From assembly GCF_000165425.1 (NCBI RefSeq), contig NW_001799510.1:157459-221458 (forward strand): a DNA stretch of 64,000 bases, written 5' to 3'. The notes under the pieces are model-generated. The model did not search any database. It saw only the letters and a program-made list of their open reading frames with translations, and was not told the origin of the DNA. Position numbers and translations under genes: made by a program. Within the stretch, counting starts at the first letter, position 1. Each line of letters opens with the position of its first letter. Source of the stretch: Paramecium tetraurelia. Lineage: Eukaryota; Ciliophora; Oligohymenophorea; Peniculida; Parameciidae. Below, one piece after another: positions 3,150 through 64,000 of the stretch.

Positions 3150-3181
3150 CATAGATTTAAATATCTTTTGTATTTATGATA

Positions 3182-49979: not shown

Positions 49980-50246
49980 TCATTCATAAATCAAATAAAA
50001 TTATTTATTAACAATAATATATACTATCAAATTATCATCTCCTAATGTATACTTAAATTTAAAGATTATGATTATCTCTTCCTTTCCTTTACCTGCAAAT
50101 AATTTCAATTTCTAAATAAAATATTAGTTTGTAATAAATTGGTCTATAGTTTTATTGATAATTGATCCTTCTACCTTCTCTTGAGTATTTCTAATGCTTT
50201 AAGAACTACTTAAAATCGGTTTTTCAATGATCACTGCATATATCAT
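49980..50246 (-). CDS. Hypothetical 88-residue protein
   Basis: ATG 50246 to TGA 49980-49982, no intron. The translation has a Ser/Gln/Asn-rich start (MIYAVIEKPILSSSQSIRNT), then a compact alpha/beta part: helix KTIDQFITNQYFIQKLKLF, a basic GKGKEE turn, and three strands (IIIIFKFKYTL, NLIVYIIV, KQFYLIYE). The hydrophobic alternation is typical of a small folded domain, for example dynein-light-chain, SRP14 or proteasome-assembly-chaperone sized folds, but I cannot assign one. Divergent from the multi-KH gene, 116 bp between start codons. Confidence 0.6.
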
Positions 50247-50362
50247 ATATTTAAGAACATAATATAATAAATATTTTTTAAGTAAGGATATTTGTTATAG
50301 AATACCAATAATTGTTTGTAAACAAATTTATGTTTGAATTAAATTAATTAAATTATTATTAT

Positions 50363-52136
50363 ATGTCGAAGGATCTAGGAGAGGAACAAGGATTATCAGG
50401 CTAATCATCTAGATCATTCTCTCCTTAACAACCTAGGAGGAAAAAATAGTTTTAAATTGATTTTTTTATTGAGTGGAAATACATTGAATAAGATTAATTG
50501 AAACCATATTTTAGAGGATGTGAAAGTACCATAATTAGCATCATTTAGTCACAATATGATGTCAAGTCTATTTAGCTGAATCGAAATAATCAAATTCCTG
50601 GGTTAGAGGGCACAGCATTTTCAATTATTGAATCTGATGATAGCAAGTTAAATTTATAACTTGAAGCCGTCAATAAAATACTTTCATTAATCGAATAAAA
50701 GAAAAATCCTACTTTTGAAATGATGATGTTGATACCTGAGGGTATGGAAATTCTATAAACACTAGGAACTGTGTCATATTTAATTGGTACATCTGGAAAG
50801 TAAATTAAAAATATTCAACTTGAAACAAAAACTGATGTTGTCGTCAATAATGCCATAAACAAATTTTCCTTACGGTCAGTGAAGATAGCTGGTGAGAATA
50901 TTATGATAATAATTTAGGTTAGTCAGATTGCATCTACAATGCTATTAAATTAATAACAAATAAATTGCATCAAAGAGGTATTACAGAAGACGACTACATC
51001 AAGAGAGCTGAACCATTAGATCCAGGAAAAGTTGTTACTAAGGTATGTCTCATTATTAAGGAGGTTTAACTTGTTTTTACAGAGATAATTATTGATTACA
51101 TTCTTAAAAATAAGGATCTAGAGAAGAAATATTAGATAAAAATGAAAGCCAAAAGTATTAATGAAGTGCCAATCAAAGTAATGATGAAATCGATTATGAT
51201 TTAGAATAAACTAAAGAAAGATGAAGAGATATTACAGTTAGTTGGTACTTTGAAAAACGTGCAAGAAGCAATTAAATCTATAATTCGGAAAATAAGTTCA
51301 TAATTCAAGAGACTGGAATTTGACGTAAGAGTAGTGATGCCTTCTAATTTTGCATCCAAATTGATAGGAGCGAGTATATTATAATGATTTATGACTTTTT
51401 CAAAGAGGGTTGTCAAATAAAGGAACTTGCAAACAAAGCCAAAGGTGCGCAAATAAAAGTTATGTCTGATAAGGATGATTCTGATATCGGATAATGTAAT
51501 ATTGAATTTTAGATAATTAGATTGCTTGGTTTAAGTCATTGGATCAGTGGAACATAAATTAGAGGCTACAGTGTTAATCTTGGAATAGATAGAGTGTTTC
51601 AAAAATGGAGGACCTGTATTTAAATAATTAAAAAGATCCTTGAGAGCGGAAAGTACATTAATGAAAACTTTGCATAACAATACAAAAATTCAGTTTCGAT
51701 CCAAGATATCAAACAAAAGAGGTTTCAACATTATTTTAATCTTTATCAGATAGAAATCCTCATCCTCCAGATCAAGTAGAAGATTGAGATCCAGATCAGA
51801 TTCAAACAAAAGACATAAAAAATAAAAAAAATCTAGATCAACTAGGTACATCTAATCAATAGACAAGTTCAAACTAACGAAAAACCAAACAACATCCATT
51901 TTAGGCAAAGATAGTTGTTCCAATAAATTTAATTGAATAAATGAAGAAAAAATTAAATCGTATTGGAAAAGAATAGGGAGTTAATATATAAGCAGATAAT
52001 AAAGTATCGATCACTCATAGGTTATTGTTAGGAATTCAGAGATGAATTTGTCCTAAAATTGAGAGGTGAAATGAAAAATTGCTTGAATGCAATCTAGCAT
52101 ATATTAAGTGAATAATGTAAATTATAAAGAAGATGA
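50363..52136 (+). CDS. Multi-KH-domain RNA-binding protein
   Basis: 536 residues, ATG 50363 to TGA 52134-52136 with six introns (50892-50917 beginning GTGAG; 51374-51405, 32 nt; 51496-51520; 51722-51749 beginning GTTT; 51776-51799; 52004-52031). At least three and perhaps five KH units are visible. The second is clear: MLIPEGMEI with SYLIGTSGKQIKNIQ (GxxG loop GTSG) and FSLRSVKIAG. The fourth has VVMPSNFASKLIGAKGCQIK and LVQVIGSVEHKLEATVLI. The last has AKIVVPINLIEQMKKKL and VLKLRGEMKNCLNAIQHIL. Units one, three and five lack a canonical GxxG and are probably degenerate. Tandem KH proteins (poly(C)-binding, vigilin-like) bind single-stranded RNA. If the fourth intron is retained, the frame instead gives an Arg/Ser-rich tail ending at TGA 51934-51936 (see findings). 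Confidence 0.85.
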
Positions 52137-53259: not shown

Positions 53260-54263
53260 ATGTCAGATTTTATTCAATGGACATATGAAAATAGATATCA
53301 AATCTCTATTGATTTGGCAGCTGGGTCTATTAGTGGAATGTAATTTTCATTTTTTTAAAGATTAGAGCTAATTGCATTTCAAGTCATCCATTGGACACAG
53401 TTAAAGTCAGAATGCAAATGTCCGAAGATGGAGTTGTAACAACACTACGAAAAATTATAAACAATGAAGGAGTCAAAGGTTTCTATAAAGGAATGTCTTT
53501 TCCAATACTCTCTATACCAATAACAAATGCGGTTGTGTTTTCAGTTTATGAATTCTGGAGAAAATTTTTTATTGGAAATTCCAATAAATAACTTACATAT
53601 TTCCAAACGTATTGATTTGATTTGAATCTTAGAGCATTCTGTGGAAGCATAGCTGGAAGTTCTGCTGCATTATTCTCGTGTCCAATTGAATTAACAAAAT
53701 GCAAATTATAAATGCAAGAAACTGAAAAAATCTACAAAAATCCGATTGATTGTGTTTTCTAAGTATTTCATATACAAAAATATAATAGATTTACAAAAAA
53801 GAAGGGTTAAAATATATTTTTAGAGGAATGCATGCTACTCAATAAAGAGAAATTCTTGGGTATTCTGCTTAGTTCGCAGTTTATGAATTCATCAAGGACA
53901 TACTTTGTGATTTATCTTAGAAGGCAGAACCTTCAACAGCAAACTTATTGATTTCAGGGGGTCTAGCAGGCGTTTCATGTTGGACAATAGGATATCCTTA
54001 AGATGTAAAATAAATCTATTAAAATGAAGACAATTAAGACCATCCTCTAATGTTAAACCGGCAAGACTTCAGGGATTTATAAGGTGAGATGTTATGATGG
54101 AGGGTTTTTGGATTGTTTGATGCAAAAAATATCTACTGAAGGTTTCAGTTCTGTTTGGAAAGGATACTCAGTTTGTGTCTTTCGGGCATTTTACGCTAAT
54201 GCAATCGGGTTTTACGCGTACGAATTGGCCAAAGAATAACTAACCTCACTCTATTAATTTTGA
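53260..54263 (+). CDS. Mitochondrial carrier (SLC25) protein
   Basis: 300 residues, ATG 53260 to TGA 54261-54263, introns 53340-53365, 53609-53632, 53763-53788 and 54005-54029. Three repeats of about 100 residues, each opening with the carrier motif Px[D/E]xx[K/R]: HPLDTVKVRMQ, CPIELTKCKLQMQ and YPQDTIKTILQ. Each ends in a GxxxFYKG or FRG-type turn (GVKGFYKGMS, LKYIFRGMHAT, SSVWKGYSV). This is the six-helix inner-membrane transporter fold. The first two motif texts and the GSISGIANCISSHP region resemble the carnitine/acylcarnitine-ornithine branch (SLC25A20/29/15), but substrate-contact residues were not checked, so the substrate is open. Motif two has Glu in place of the usual Asp. Confidence 0.93.
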
Positions 54264-54919: not shown

Positions 54920-56284
54920 TCATTCAAGGGTAGGATCATGAAAGAGAACTGTGGGCATTTTTGGTCCTTAAGAACAGTTCTAATAATATTTAATTTAAAG
55001 TAAAAATTCTGTAAATGGATTAATTAAGTCCTTATATAATCTATAGCTGATGTGATCCATATCATCTGCCAGATGTAGAATACATTTATCAGTTTTACAT
55101 GATTCTAATTATAAAACATATTTACTGTATAATTGTTAAGCTTATGAATAAGGAATGATGTTGTCAGCCAAACCATGCAAAATAAAAATAGGTACTTTCA
55201 CTTTCTAAATTTGTTCCAAATTGTCAAATCTCTATCTAATGAGGAACTATGCCCACGAACCAATGTAATCTCGGACCGCTGCTTTAAGTGAAGTGAATGG
55301 AGACATTAAAGCCAAACATGCAGGTTTGTATCTATTCGCTATATAAGTGGCTGGTCCACTCCCAATACTTCTACCGAATACAATAATCCTGTTTTCAGCA
55401 TATCCCAATCTCTTTGTCAGATAATTAAACACATATTCAGCATCATTCAGAATGGACTCAGCTGAAGGTTGTTCATTTTTGTATTTTCCGTATCCAGGAT
55501 ATTCAACAGCTATAGCAGATACCTATTTAAGACTTACTAAATTGCAGTACTTGTAAATTATCACGCAGATGTACTAAAAAATTATAGGATTATGTTATAT
55601 CTTCACAATTGGCATGAAAATAGATCAAAATGTTGGGGGAATGTTTTTTTGAGTCCACATACATGCAAGGAATATAGCCATTGATTTGATGGGAATCCCT
55701 TGAATTTGATCTTGGAGGGGGCTATTCATCATCACATTCATTTTAATTTTTTTATTAATTGAGATCAATCAATTCTTAAGGTAATTTGATAAGTGGTTAA
55801 CTGAAGCAGATACTCTGATTGACTCTTGTCCTTTTAATAGGGTAAAGATTTGAAGACATTCTACACAATTGAGGTTTTTTTGTGATAATCTAAACCGATT
55901 GCATATTAAGTTTCTGTAGTTTTTGTTGAACATCTGGACTACCCTCACTAGAATCAAATGTGGGTGAGTTTATGTCAGTAGTTTATCGCTTTCGTTATCT
56001 ATTTGTAATTGGTTTCCATTCAAAATTTGGTATTGGCTGCAATTAAGATTCTCTATTCTCTAGAAATGTATATATTACGTGGGCTCATCTATTAAAAAAT
56101 GATCTTCATCAAAATCTATTTCACTTTATTTGAAGAAAACACCCCTCTTCTTGTTTGTTCTTGGTACATAATTTTGAAAAGTAGGATAGAGTTTTGGATA
56201 TTTTGGAATCCACAATATTTGGCCATGTTCATGATCATTAGATATTTCTTTTGGGGCTGGGAAAAAGATAAAGTCTAAATCCAT
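54920..56284 (-). CDS. Alpha/beta hydrolase, ABHD17-like
   Basis: 436 residues, minus strand, ATG 56284 to TGA 54920-54922, introns 56053-56078 (26 nt) and 55523-55550 (28 nt). The first roughly 185 residues are polar and disordered. The hydrolase domain follows: ILIYFHANCEDITQSYNFL (oxyanion strand), VSAIAVEYPGYGKY, IIVFGRSIGSGPATYIA with nucleophile Ser in GRSIGSG, SPFTSLKAAVRDYIG, VPIFILHGLADNIIP with the acid residue, and DDMDHISY with the catalytic His. All three triad positions are present. ABHD17 enzymes remove palmitate from membrane proteins such as Ras and PSD-95. Animal ABHD17 has a Cys-rich palmitoylated N-terminus, which is absent here. Confidence 0.9.
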
Positions 56285-56887: not shown

Positions 56888-59800
56888 TCAATATTTCCTA
56901 GAGTACTTTTTTGATTTATGAGTAGATCTTCTTTTATAGCTGTCACTGCTTTCAGATTTATTTCTCTACTTGGATCGAGATCGATCTTTACTTTAATAGC
57001 GAGAACGATCTTTGTTTTCAAAATTCTTGGAAGATTCTATAATTGAAAATAATATCTACTTTCATAATCATATTTGCTAGTTTTAGTATGCCTCCTTTGA
57101 TATTGAAACCCACTATAATATTTATTATTTTTATATTTATCAGAATCTACAGATTCCTATCTTTTTCTTCTTTATTCTTGTGATTTATCAGACTCTTCGC
57201 TGCTTGACCCTAAGATGAATAAATATGAATACTTTTTTTATTATGGAATCTATTTCTGGAAAGATCATCCTCATAATATCGTTTATTTCCATCCCTGGAC
57301 TTATCCTGTTTTTGAGATTAATATCTATGTCTTGATTTTGATTTATCATAGTAATCAGTTTTGTCATATTTGTGTCTAACATATTTTTCGGTTGGACTTT
57401 TTTGATTGTAATTATAATATTTGTGATGATGATGATGTTATTTATGTCTTTATCTAGTAGAGAAGTCTCTGCTTTTGTCTGATTCTGAGTTACTTTACTT
57501 TTTTTATGCTTTGCTGGAATCAGATGGACTTCTTTCACTAGTTTCCTTTTTAGTATCACTTTTCTTATTTATTTAAGGATATTAAGCTTGCAAGGATATC
57601 AATGAGAGATTGGGCACTTTCAGGTTGTCCTCCTCTTATTAATTATTAAATCTCTTTATAGTATCCTATTATTATTATTGTCCACTATCTAGGGTGGCTT
57701 GATCAGTGGGATACCTCTTAAAGCCTAGAATAGCATAGAGTATTCGTTTAGTTAATTGAATTAGATTCTTTTTCCTTAGAAATTATTCATGATCTGTTAA
57801 ATTCTTTTGGATTTCCTTCCCTAAACAATACTAAATATATAATTGAGTTTCATAATCTCTCAAAAGGGAGGAGTAGCATCGTTTAACAAACCAATTCTCG
57901 AATTTTGATTCCCTATACTTCATGATATTGAATTGATAAAAATAAGGAGTGATGAGATCCCAATTCTTCATAAATGCCATGTCATTAGTCATCATCGTAT
58001 TTTAAAGGTATTTGAATACATATCTGCACATTTGCATCGACATTTAATCTTAGAACTAATCTAATTTTAATTAGCATTGTTAATAAATCAAATCTGAAAA
58101 GTTTTGCTTTGTTTATATAATTTAATTTCTCAAACATAGTACCAATATTGTCATATTCTTTCTAGGATGAGAAGCCTCAAAAAGCAGAACCTTTGTAGAA
58201 GAGGAACTTCGTTCAATTATTTATTTGACCTACTTGCAAGATTCTTTATACTGAGGAGAGATCAAAACAGTAAAGTATGTCATTTCCTTTTCGTTATTTG
58301 CTTCTTATTCTAATAGTTTCTTAATGGCAGTGCTTGTCTCTTGTATTTGTTATAATGTTCCAATCAGACAAACCTCTTTCTCTCTGTATTAAATATAGAA
58401 GAAGGGGTGATTAATATCTCTTTGTGTTTGTTCTCCTCTCGCATTGTAAACGGAATCTCTTGAAATTCTAATTTCAGCATTTTATTTCAATTAAAACATA
58501 TTTTGCTAAACAGACTTAGTTTCACTTCTACTGATGTACAATCTTTAAACACATAGAGTTTTTAATGTGTTCCTAATTTCAGTAGCTGTTTATTCTATAT
58601 TTTGTTTAGATCCTTTAATTTTAATCGGAGTGGCTTTGTCCATTGGGAATATTTCCTCACTGTGTGCTAACGATTTATTGTAAATGATATTGACTTCTTA
58701 TTTATTGTCTAAACTATTGCTAAAAGAATAATATTAATTTTAATTACAATTTGTTTATTAATCTCTTCAAATAAATGATAGGAACCTTAATCTATCCTTC
58801 TATAATCCCAAGTTCCTTCTTTAGTTCTTTAATTATTTGTTCCACCATATTCAGAATAGATCTAAAGATATTGATTTATTGGATAGACCCTATTACAGTA
58901 AGGTTGTTTTCCTTTTTGAAGAAATCAGCAACTTATTGATCAATCTGTTCAAAACTGATCTTGTTTCCAATCTTATAAATTAATTGGGCATTCTTCTTCA
59001 CCACTTTCTATTCTAGTATATTAATTTTGAAACATTCCTTAATCATATCAATATTTAGGATATTCTATTATTGAATGGCTTCTATTTATTCATGTAATTC
59101 TAACTTCTCCTTGTACTACTCTTCGAATTTCTATTAAGCCACATCAACTATGGATTGCATTTATTACAACTTCCCAGAATCTTAAGGTTGAACTTCAATG
59201 GATGATTTATTAAATTAATCACTTTGATAGTATGATTTTCCAGTAAGGGGAACTGAAGGAACTTGTAGTTCTGAAGTGTTATTGTCTTCCTCCTTTTTTA
59301 ATTCTTCATCTTGCCTAGTTGATAGATATTATTGTGGTTGTTTGAGTGACAAATACTCTCTTACAGTTTGCTTTTCTAAAGACTTCATAATTTTGTATCT
59401 ATTATCGTATTCACTGTCAGAATCACTGCATGATGAGGATGAGAGTTCTTCTCTTTTCTTTTTCTGCTTTTTCTCATTATTATAAGATTTGACTTTCCTT
59501 TGTTGAATTCTCTCTAAATTAGTTTTCTCTTTTTCTTATTCCTCCAAAATGCGTTTTTCATCCTAACACTCTTGACAATACCAAGCATCTTTAGGGACTG
59601 ATTCCAAGGGAGGGACCAAACACAATAAATGAAATCCACAATTGCATTTATCACACAATAACAATTACTCATCATCTTATGGTGTTTTGGTTTAACATAT
59701 TTTACACACCATATTTTCCAAATGCTCCTCCCACTCCTCTTGAGTAACATCGGTTGGTTTCAATCCTAAATAACCCTTACACTTTGCGGCACCACATAAG

Positions 59801-60645
59801 CATTTCGTCAAGGGAGTATGAAAAACATCGAATTGATAATCAAATGTTAATTCTTCATCCTCATTTATATCACGACTTGCAAATATACCAATACAGACTT
59901 CTCCCAACACATTCCACTTCTCTGTTATACAATTCGGTTCGCAGGAATGATTGATGAACCTTGCCAAATTACCTTTGGTTGTTGGATCAATAACTTCCTA
60001 GTTATTCAGTTTCATTAAATATGTACATGTCGATTTCTAAATAAACACACAATTCAAACCGAATATTCTTGCACTCTCCTCCTCCCCAAAGCACTATTTA
60101 TCTAGAAAATCTCTCCAATGTATTGCATTATAAATTGTCCTTTTTATATGCGGTCACCAGCATACAACCCCATTCCCTTTCCTCCACATTTAAGTGGATA
60201 CACGCAAGCATCCTCATGCTTTTAAAATCTTCTATTCTTGCAAAGTTCTGCACATGGACAGAGTTCGACATCACATTCCGTACATGTGAATTTATTTAAA
60301 CATCGATCACCGCAATTATACGAGTATTATGGTCCTTGGATACGACTAAATTTAATACAATCCTCTACCTTGATATTTGATCTTCAGGACAACAAATACA
60401 CGAGCAAACCAGAGTTTCATCTCTGCTCACTCGAAATTGTTTTCTCTCTAAATACTGATTCTTTTTCAATAAAGTGAAGTATTTGAAACTTTCCTTCAGA
60501 CCTTGCAATCTAGAAGGGGATTTCCCTGCAATTTATTTATTATCTGTTGAGAAATATATGAAATCAATACATTTCTATTCTTGGACGTCTCCTTTAAGAT
60601 TGGCTAATCGTTCTTTTTAGTTTTGTTGCTCTCATCCATTTGCAT
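56888..60645 (-). CDS. SET-domain histone methyltransferase with PHD finger and KH-like repeats
   Basis: Minus strand, ATG 60645 to TGA 56888-56890, introns 60346-60368, 60037-60059 (begins GTTT), 58720-58747, 57210-57232, 57037-57059. About 1211 residues after allowing for one 2-nt frame offset near the start (see findings). Order: AWS cysteines ([25 protein letters not shown]), SET domain ([31 protein letters not shown]), post-SET ([14 protein letters not shown]), a PHD finger (VCKICQ ... [12 protein letters not shown] ... WYCQEC), then three segments with KH-type endings ([38 protein letters not shown]). The C-terminus is an Arg/Ser-rich, SR-like tail ([15 protein letters not shown]). AWS plus SET plus post-SET is the NSD/SETD2/ASH1 class, usually an H3K36 methyltransferase; the substrate here is inferred. 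RNA-binding modules suggest co-transcriptional recruitment. Confidence 0.88.
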
Positions 60646-61397: not shown

Positions 61398-64000
61398 ATG
61401 AATAATACGAATAGTTTTCCCAAAATCCAAAAGGCATAATCAACAGTACAGTATTTTATATAAATATAGGCAAAACTTTTAATAAGGACAGAATGGGATT
61501 AGAGTATCAATTCAAGTATACCTATAACGATAAGAGCGGAAATGTCATAAAATCGAATGAAAACTGATATTACAAATAAACACTTTTAAACAAATTCTGA
61601 TGTTTCTTATCTCAAAAATAAACATAAAAATTTCCAATCTATTGAAAGCAGCATTTACAAAGATCCAGAACTATCTTAAACAGTAAAAACAATATTTATT
61701 GGTTATAGAAATATGATAAATCTTTACAAAGTTTTTATAGTACAATGTACAGAAAATCATAAAACAGATTACAATTCAAAAATAAAATTGAAAAGACTAC
61801 TATCAAGAGCGAATGGTTGGACTTTGAAGATTTGCTAAAAGATAAGAATTTGATGGAGAACGGGTTGTAAAAATACTTTTTTGATATTTTGAAACATGAA
61901 ATCAAGCAATCACCAAATTTATCAGTTATTCCGCCGAATAGATAACAAGCTTTGGATTTGAAAGAGTGGTTGTTCTTCATGCTTCAAAGAACGAAGGATA
62001 AAAGCAAAAGTTTAACTGCTATTTAAATAGCTGAAGAAATTCAATTAATATACACATCTTGTTTTAAAGAAATTATAAAGTAACTATAAATTAAAAATGT
62101 AGATAAGTCAAAGCTGAATGTGTTGAGAGAGGAGAATTACTCTAAATTATATGGGACTTTTATATCCAATTGATTGATTAAGTAATTAAAAGTTCAAATT
62201 AATAAATGCAAATTGTTGAATAAGAAGTGAAAAATAAAATGATTGATCAGCAGAACTTTTATAATGAACAACTCCATTATCAAGAACTCATATATAATGA
62301 AAGCAAGAACTAAATCAAATAAATACAATTCGACTATGATCGAGCTTTGGATGTTGATTAGTAGCAAAAAGAAGAGATATTACAATTAACATCTGAATAC
62401 AGGGAAGCACTTGAGGTAATAGAGTAACATAGAAAATAAATAGATGAATTGCAATTATAAATTGTCATGTTAAAAACAGAATAAATCAATGAGAACAATC
62501 CTGAAAATGAGAAAATTAATATCAAAGTGTAATAGGGATAGTCTATAGTTTCACATTTAATGAATTTTCAAGCTAAAATCGATAATAGTTAGAAGTATAG
62601 AATCAAATCTCCATTCAAATCATAAGGCAGTAAATCCCCTGGCAGATCACCTAAGAAAAATAGTGTCATCTTTGACAGATGGGAATAATTAAGGAATTAA
62701 GAAAATTAACTGAAATCTTAGATCATATCATTAAAATATTTAGATTTTGATAAAGATCAACAGCCATCATAAAATAAAATAATATAAATAAGTGGAACAA
62801 CAGATCAATATGTACAAACTGATGAAGATTAAATTTGGAATTAACACACTAATCTTTAATTTTAAAGCGATTCAACTCTCGAGAAGGCCAAAAAAGTATC
62901 AAATGATCTGGAATAAAAAATATCAATGGCTTTGAAAATGTTAGCAGAACAAGAATTAGATGAGAATAAAAAGTTATTGTTATGCAGAACATTAAGTGAA
63001 AGTAAAGAAGTTTGTGAATAAAATAAATCATTATCAATGAGATTGATTACAATGAATAGATTAGATTCAATAAAAAAAATGGAAATATTGGAAAAGGAGG
63101 AACTATGCTAAGAATTGGAGATGAAACTACAATAAACGGTCTAAGATTTTATCTCCATAATCTCGAATAATAAAAAGAAAGTACATAGATTAGCGACCAA
63201 AAATACATAGTTGATAGGGACTTTGAAATAAATAGAAAGTAAATATGAAATCAAAATTAATGATGTCAATGCAATTGAAGAGGAGGAATTTTAAAATAAT
63301 AATGATATGGATCAAGATGGAGATTATAATGAATTTAGCCCTGGTAAGGAATTTTAGAATTTAGATGATGATAGCCATCCATAAGAGGAAACAATCAGAA
63401 TGGTAGATTCAATTAATCTAAAAAAAAAAGTTGTTTAAAAATCTTAAAAAAATTAGAATGCTGACTCAGAAACTTATAATAATGATTAACTGGAATAAAT
63501 AGAGAATGGCTTTAATAATTAAACCTACCAAAAAGATATTAGATACCTATAAGATATGGATAACAGTCAAAAATAGTCTTCACATATGGAATTTAATGAT
63601 GAAGAGATGTTAAAAGATTCTAGAGATTAAATACCATCTGATCTTTTAACAAGTTCTCATCAAAAGATTAAAAACAAAGAATTAGATGAAAATACTCCAT
63701 TGAAAAATTTAGAATTGAAGTCACCTACAGCAAATAAAAATTCGATCAAGGGTAGTCTCACAAATTAAAAATCAATTTAGAGAATTTCATAATAGGGAGA
63801 TTCCAAGACTATCAATCAATAATAATATCACCTAAGAAACAGTAAAAATTAATTAGACCAAAATTCTATGAAGCTTGGAAAACAAAATTCTAAACACAAT
63901 ATAAGCAATAGTCCCATAAGAGAGAAGGATGAAATTTCGTAAATGAGCCTAAGCTAGAGAAGTCAAGCAGAATCATAGGATGATGAAAACAATCGTGCTC
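61398..64000 (+). CDS. Large coiled-coil protein, 3'-truncated by the window
   Basis: ATG 61398; introns 61446-61469 (24 nt, stop-free multiple of three, optional), 61683-61708 (26 nt) and 62080-62102 (23 nt). The frame is then open to the last base, so at least 840 residues. Order: a polar N-terminus, a helical globular region (about residues 60-210: SEWLDFEDLLKDKNL, LKEWLFFMLQRTKD), a coiled coil (about 215-330 and again 440-560), and a long Ser/Asp/Asn/Gln-rich disordered region. Short basic Ser-Pro patches (GSKSPGRSPKKN) lie between. There is no catalytic or membrane motif. Such proteins are typical of ciliate basal-body/cortex inventories, but this cannot be decided here. Confidence 0.88.

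Follow-up and report, generated by a model that had tools for sequence, protein, structure and literature searches.

The minus-strand gene at 60645-56888 of the window (the whole stretch of Paramecium tetraurelia DNA analyzed, 64,000 nucleotides) encodes a protein whose catalytic part is assigned by its sequence to the Set2/NSD/ASH1 class of histone methyltransferases. A C-terminal module follows the PHD finger, is constrained like the SET domain and is under strong purifying selection. With moderate confidence, the protein is read as a Set2-class H3K36 methyltransferase in which this new module replaces SRI as the coupling to transcription.

The gene was read in the ciliate code (TAA/TAG = Q) as a single continuous gene. 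With five introns spliced out, the reading frame is open for 1207 residues between window 60631 and the TGA (56890-56888). Residue 1 of the numbering is the E at 60631, and the scanned protein excludes the first residues upstream of it. The start codon is probably at 60645 or 60639; the 5' end (ATG 60645 to about 60480) needs one further, longer intron, for which both duplicates appear to offer about 65 nt, and which in the window copy would have to be about 77 nt long. Every named domain is encoded downstream of this uncertain 5' end. The two duplicates in the genome, on contig 14 (L016) and contig 200 (L017), carry the parts in the same order as the window copy. The contig-200 copy has two one-base frame changes relative to the other two copies (at about 2290-2320 and 3150-3180), which are either assembly errors or signs of a decaying gene. 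The preliminary description placed the PHD finger and the KH-like part in one gene, and this is borne out: PHD and KH-like unit 1 lie in a common exon (60036-58748) with no intron or stop between them, and the duplicates keep the same order, so that an intron or gene boundary between the two is excluded. Coordinates are given in Table 1.

Table 1. Features of the methyltransferase gene in window coordinates, with residues of the spliced product in brackets.
Feature	Window position	Strand	Evidence
Whole gene	56888..60645	-	six exons traced; intron places match the contig-14 and contig-200 duplicates
Introns	60368-60346, 60059-60037, 58747-58720, 57232-57210, 57059-57037	-	23, 23, 28, 23 and 23 nt
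AWS (96-131)	60216..60323	-	Pfam PF17907, 37.3 bits, cut-off 23.3; genome search places AWS identically
SET (145-251), split by intron 60059-60037	59833..60176	-	Pfam PF00856, 84.2 bits
Post-SET zinc cysteines (261-274)	59764..59805	-	sequence
PHD finger (294-340)	59566..59706	-	Pfam PF00628, 37.9 bits
Charged Gln/Ser-rich linker	59041..59550	-	fast evolving, pN 0.221
KH-like unit 1 (516-586), VIGSIQQ	58828..59040	-	7.3 bits; 5/1000 shuffles; hhalign 0/60
KH-like unit 2 (590-664), IKGSKQN, split by 28-nt intron 58747-58720	58566..58818	-	3.2 bits; 28/1000 shuffles; hhalign 3/60
KH-like unit 3 (668-752), LIGTLQQ	58302..58556	-	10.2 bits; 1/1000 shuffles; hhalign 0/60
Possible unit 4 (757-832)	58062..58289	-	1.4 bits; 71/1000 shuffles; hhalign 44/60
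Conserved region, probably helical (837-955)	57693..58049	-	low-confidence model; pN 0.075
Lys/Ser/Arg-rich low-complexity tail (956-1207)	56891..57692	-	K 16%, S 17%, R 10%

The order AWS, SET, post-SET and PHD finger, as first described, was recovered with AWS, SET and PHD above their Pfam cut-offs and the post-SET cysteines seen in the sequence. The SET motifs GKGMGL, NHSCEPN and ELTFDY were intact by eye. SETD2 was the top solved-structure match (E 1.8e-47, residues 51-274, reaching N-terminal of AWS), and the bit scores were 165 for SETD2, 142 for NSD2, 139 for ASH1L, 105 for the best KMT2D-bearing chain and 83 for EZH2. In a genome search AWS was found at three loci, the window gene and the duplicates on contigs 14 and 200, all of one family, which makes this the sole Set2/NSD/ASH1-class candidate found, in a search that runs exon by exon and could miss an AWS split between exons elsewhere. 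A genome search with the C-terminal region likewise found only the window gene and its two duplicates. For both Tetrahymena and Paramecium, a passage of PMC3598677 mentions putative homologues of Set2 whose SET lies close to the N-terminus; going by that passage, the enzyme class is not new in ciliates.

By scores, AWS-SET-post-SET is closest to SETD2, including the residues before AWS, and as in SETD2/Set2 a long C-terminal part follows the catalytic core. Unlike SETD2/Set2, the Paramecium enzyme has a PHD after SET, and neither the C-terminal SRI nor the WW that lies between SET and SRI was found in a Pfam scan of the whole protein (E up to 5), which also gave no PWWP. In the probably helical region Pfam gave no SRI at E up to 10; a diverged SRI can escape Pfam profiles. 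The genome search for SRI was empty, as was the same search in every control genome. The PHD directly after post-SET is a feature of NSD1/2/3, SET then PHD being the NSD order, and the longer NSD2/NSD3 chains matched up to query 337-339, across the post-SET PHD (match ranges only). A somewhat unlikely alternative is that the enzyme is NSD-like, not Set2-like, with H3K36me1/2 as its product and the polymerase coupling absent. Against this reading, the NSD2 bit score is below that of SETD2, the PWWP and several PHDs that precede SET in NSD proteins were not found by Pfam, which gave AWS, SET and one PHD stretch in the protein from residue 1 onward, and the C-terminus is of another kind. The nearest solved PHDs include those of KMT2D, UHRF1, ATXR5 and KDM5B, several of which read unmodified H3.

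Constraint was calculated for the window copy vs. the contig-14 copy, a pair in which synonymous sites have nearly saturated (pS 0.68-0.90). pN was 0.050-0.061 for units 1-3 and 0.113 for unit 4, and the helical region was also low (Table 1), compared with 0.052 for SET, 0.030 for PHD and 0.206 for the tail, the linker being higher still. Given such low pN despite near-saturated pS, the module is very likely a functional folded part of the protein, whatever its fold.

As to that fold, the preliminary description had named at least three KH-type segments. The strings VIGSIQQ (564), IKGSKQN (647) and LIGTLQQ (731) are present, spaced by 83 and 84 residues. Units were scored with a KH profile home-made from 14 KH segments (69 positions), significance was determined by 1000 shuffles per unit, and a profile-profile test against the KH profile (hhalign) used 60 column shuffles per unit (Table 1). 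Units 1-3 matched the profile between positions 37 and 68 of 69, which is the last strand and helix, outside the GxxG loop, and the KH-like signal spans about 20-32 residues. What stands of the KH claim is a resemblance of units 1-3 to the final strand and helix of the KH profile, short of complete KH domains; GxxG and a Pfam KH match do not stand. For unit 4, the likeness to KH appears to be at or near chance, and not clearly above it.

Controls comprised 93 ORFs (1462 tiles). Six of these carry KH domains and scored at least 32 bits; the best of the other 87 scored 6.6. Units 1 and 3 of the window copy exceeded all 87 non-KH control ORFs, whereas the score of unit 2 was reached by 13 control ORFs and that of unit 4 by 25, the six KH ones counted in. 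In the duplicates the scores were 6.4 and 6.4 for unit 1, 8.1 and 8.1 for unit 2, and 7.3 and 6.5 for unit 3; units 1 and 3 were therefore lower, and unit 2 higher, than in the window copy, and some duplicate unit scores fall just below the maximum of the 87 non-KH controls. When units were compared with each other by hhalign, the score of units 1 and 3 was reached by 0/60 shuffles and that of units 2 and 3 by 1/60. Units 1 and 2 had no mutual match (49/60 shuffles reached the score), and pairs with unit 4 were likewise not above shuffles. One unit 1-unit 2 hhalign match (score 24.7) was discarded, as the slices had nine residues in common and the match was at chance once the overlap was removed.

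The GxxG of KH domains grips nucleic acid, and none was found in the KH-like region of any of the three copies. Pfam gave no KH in the separate units at E up to 10, and a KH_1 profile search of the organism's own genome returned 14 matches, none of them in the methyltransferase gene. A PDB profile search with the KH-like region gave no match, and among 443 and 230 pattern matches in the viral and prokaryote collections no relative was confirmed. NCBIfam matches were set aside, being far under their cut-offs. The type I KH fold has three layers in the order beta-alpha-alpha-beta-beta-alpha; low-confidence models did not show it, and do not firmly exclude it. Single-sequence AlphaFold2 gave a model of KH1 with pLDDT 60.9, all helices and no strands, and a model of KH3-KH4-helical region with pLDDT 38.5; a Foldseek search with the latter, poor model gave nothing at E <= 0.001 (best 50 of 379 weaker matches seen).

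An unlikely reading, on these results, is that the units are true but degenerate KH domains with RNA-binding capacity; nascent transcripts would then guide or hold the enzyme or, during development, non-coding transcripts to which small RNAs pair would do so. Three evenly spaced units with a KH-like last strand and helix speak for it, as do the RNA contact of yeast Set2 and the basic tail; the missing GxxG and Pfam matches, the strandless KH1 model and the lack of a match between units 1 and 2 speak against it. It is quite conceivable, though short of probable, that the strand-helix likeness is due to chance or convergence, and that the module is an unrelated, lineage-specific alpha/beta and helical scaffold which binds proteins only. 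The absence of relatives in PDB, Pfam and the viral or prokaryote collections is in keeping with such a scaffold, and so are the shortness of the signal, the near-chance score of unit 4 and the empty Foldseek result from the poor model. This explanation is countered by the two window-copy units that beat the non-KH controls, by the score of unit 2 in both duplicates, and by the regular spacing. Compared with type I KH proteins (NOVA, FUBP, IGF2BP), the units resemble the KH profile in their last strand and helix, but lack GxxG and a Pfam match, and the KH fold is putative. Each of the three units is probably a degenerate KH-type fold or some other alpha/beta fold that mainly offers a surface for contacts with proteins; binding of RNA through KH folds is, from the sequence, possible.

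The helical region was placed in no family by Pfam (SRI included), and a PDB profile search gave one weak match (E 0.67). The tail had been described as SR-type, which the counts do not sustain: 13 RS/SR pairs were present in 252 residues vs. a shuffle mean of 8.5, and 13 or more occurred in 124 of 2000 shuffles. For the last 107 residues, the 8 RS/SR pairs were reached by 669 of 2000 shuffles. RS pairs are near what composition gives, and 'basic, serine-rich tail' is a better term than 'SR domain'. The C-terminal KH-like and helical module as a whole, with no relatives found outside its own genome (PDB, Pfam, viral and prokaryote collections), is a further difference from SETD2/Set2. Among the titles and abstract starts listed in a literature search with subscription journals and bioRxiv mostly outside its scope, no description of the architecture or of the C-terminal module was found.

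Under the favored explanation, a Set2-class enzyme with a new coupling module, the enzyme would write H3K36 methylation in the bodies of transcribed genes, and the PHD would read the unmodified H3 start and aid nucleosome docking. The three KH-like units, the helical region and the basic tail would together do the job of SRI, the coupling to elongating polymerase, with elongation factors (SPT6), splicing proteins or nascent RNA as candidate contact partners. CTD heptads are the ligand of SRI. Paramecium RPB1 is reported, in a 2025 paper (PMC12716044), to be without a CTD heptad repeat or motif, and this reported lack fits with there being no detectable SRI; RPB1 was located in this genome through its family, and the lack of heptads is taken from the literature. 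SPT6 is described as multicopy in that paper (PMC12716044), and PMC12572195 has SETD2 binding SPT6. According to the sections of PMC7933334 available, animal SETD2 rides on Pol II via SRI; in one passage there, Pol II contact via SRI activates SETD2 rather than recruits it, in which case 'tether' may misname the replaced function. From those sections, human SETD2 also binds hnRNP L via its SHI domain, and SHI loss lowers H3K36me3 (PMC7933334), while an excerpt of PMC5492175 reports that yeast Set2 cross-links to nascent RNA without an evident RNA-binding motif. The SHI domain and the yeast RNA contact are a precedent for coupling Set2 to RNA or RNA processing, and are likened to the Paramecium module by the function proposed here, not by sequence.

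A narrower version of the favored explanation appears improbable: that the only Set2-class enzyme of a heptad-less lineage lost SRI and gained a degenerate KH array, a helical domain and a basic tail, its link to elongation being nascent RNA or RNA-bound factors and not phospho-CTD. The enzyme might have a part in genome rearrangement guided by small RNAs, but nothing specific points there, and the retention of three copies is in keeping with a general function to at least the same degree. The coupling of H3K36 methylation to transcription has been understood via SRI and CTD heptads, and an organism reported to be heptad-less, with a Set2-class enzyme in which SRI was not found and a new conserved module was, makes an alternative link testable.

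Other sequences in the window were recorded. A separate gene fragment on the plus strand (50231-51142) carries a GxxG-bearing KH domain (LIGTSGKQIKN) that matched KH_1 with E 0.00082 and 19.5 bits, under the Pfam cut-off of 21.5, and with 23.5 bits in the genome search; segments similar to it occur on contigs 22 and 216. A long open frame rich in charged residues (62035-63999, plus strand) leaves the window and matched no Pfam family (E up to 0.001). A mitochondrial carrier fragment (E 1.3e-11) lies at 53750-54097 on the plus strand. The neighbor of the window copy, at 54920-55624 on the minus strand, is an alpha/beta hydrolase (Hydrolase_4, E 2.3e-11), whereas both the contig-14 and contig-200 copies have 3' of the gene a frame with GPGAGKGTQ, resembling an adenylate/UMP kinase.
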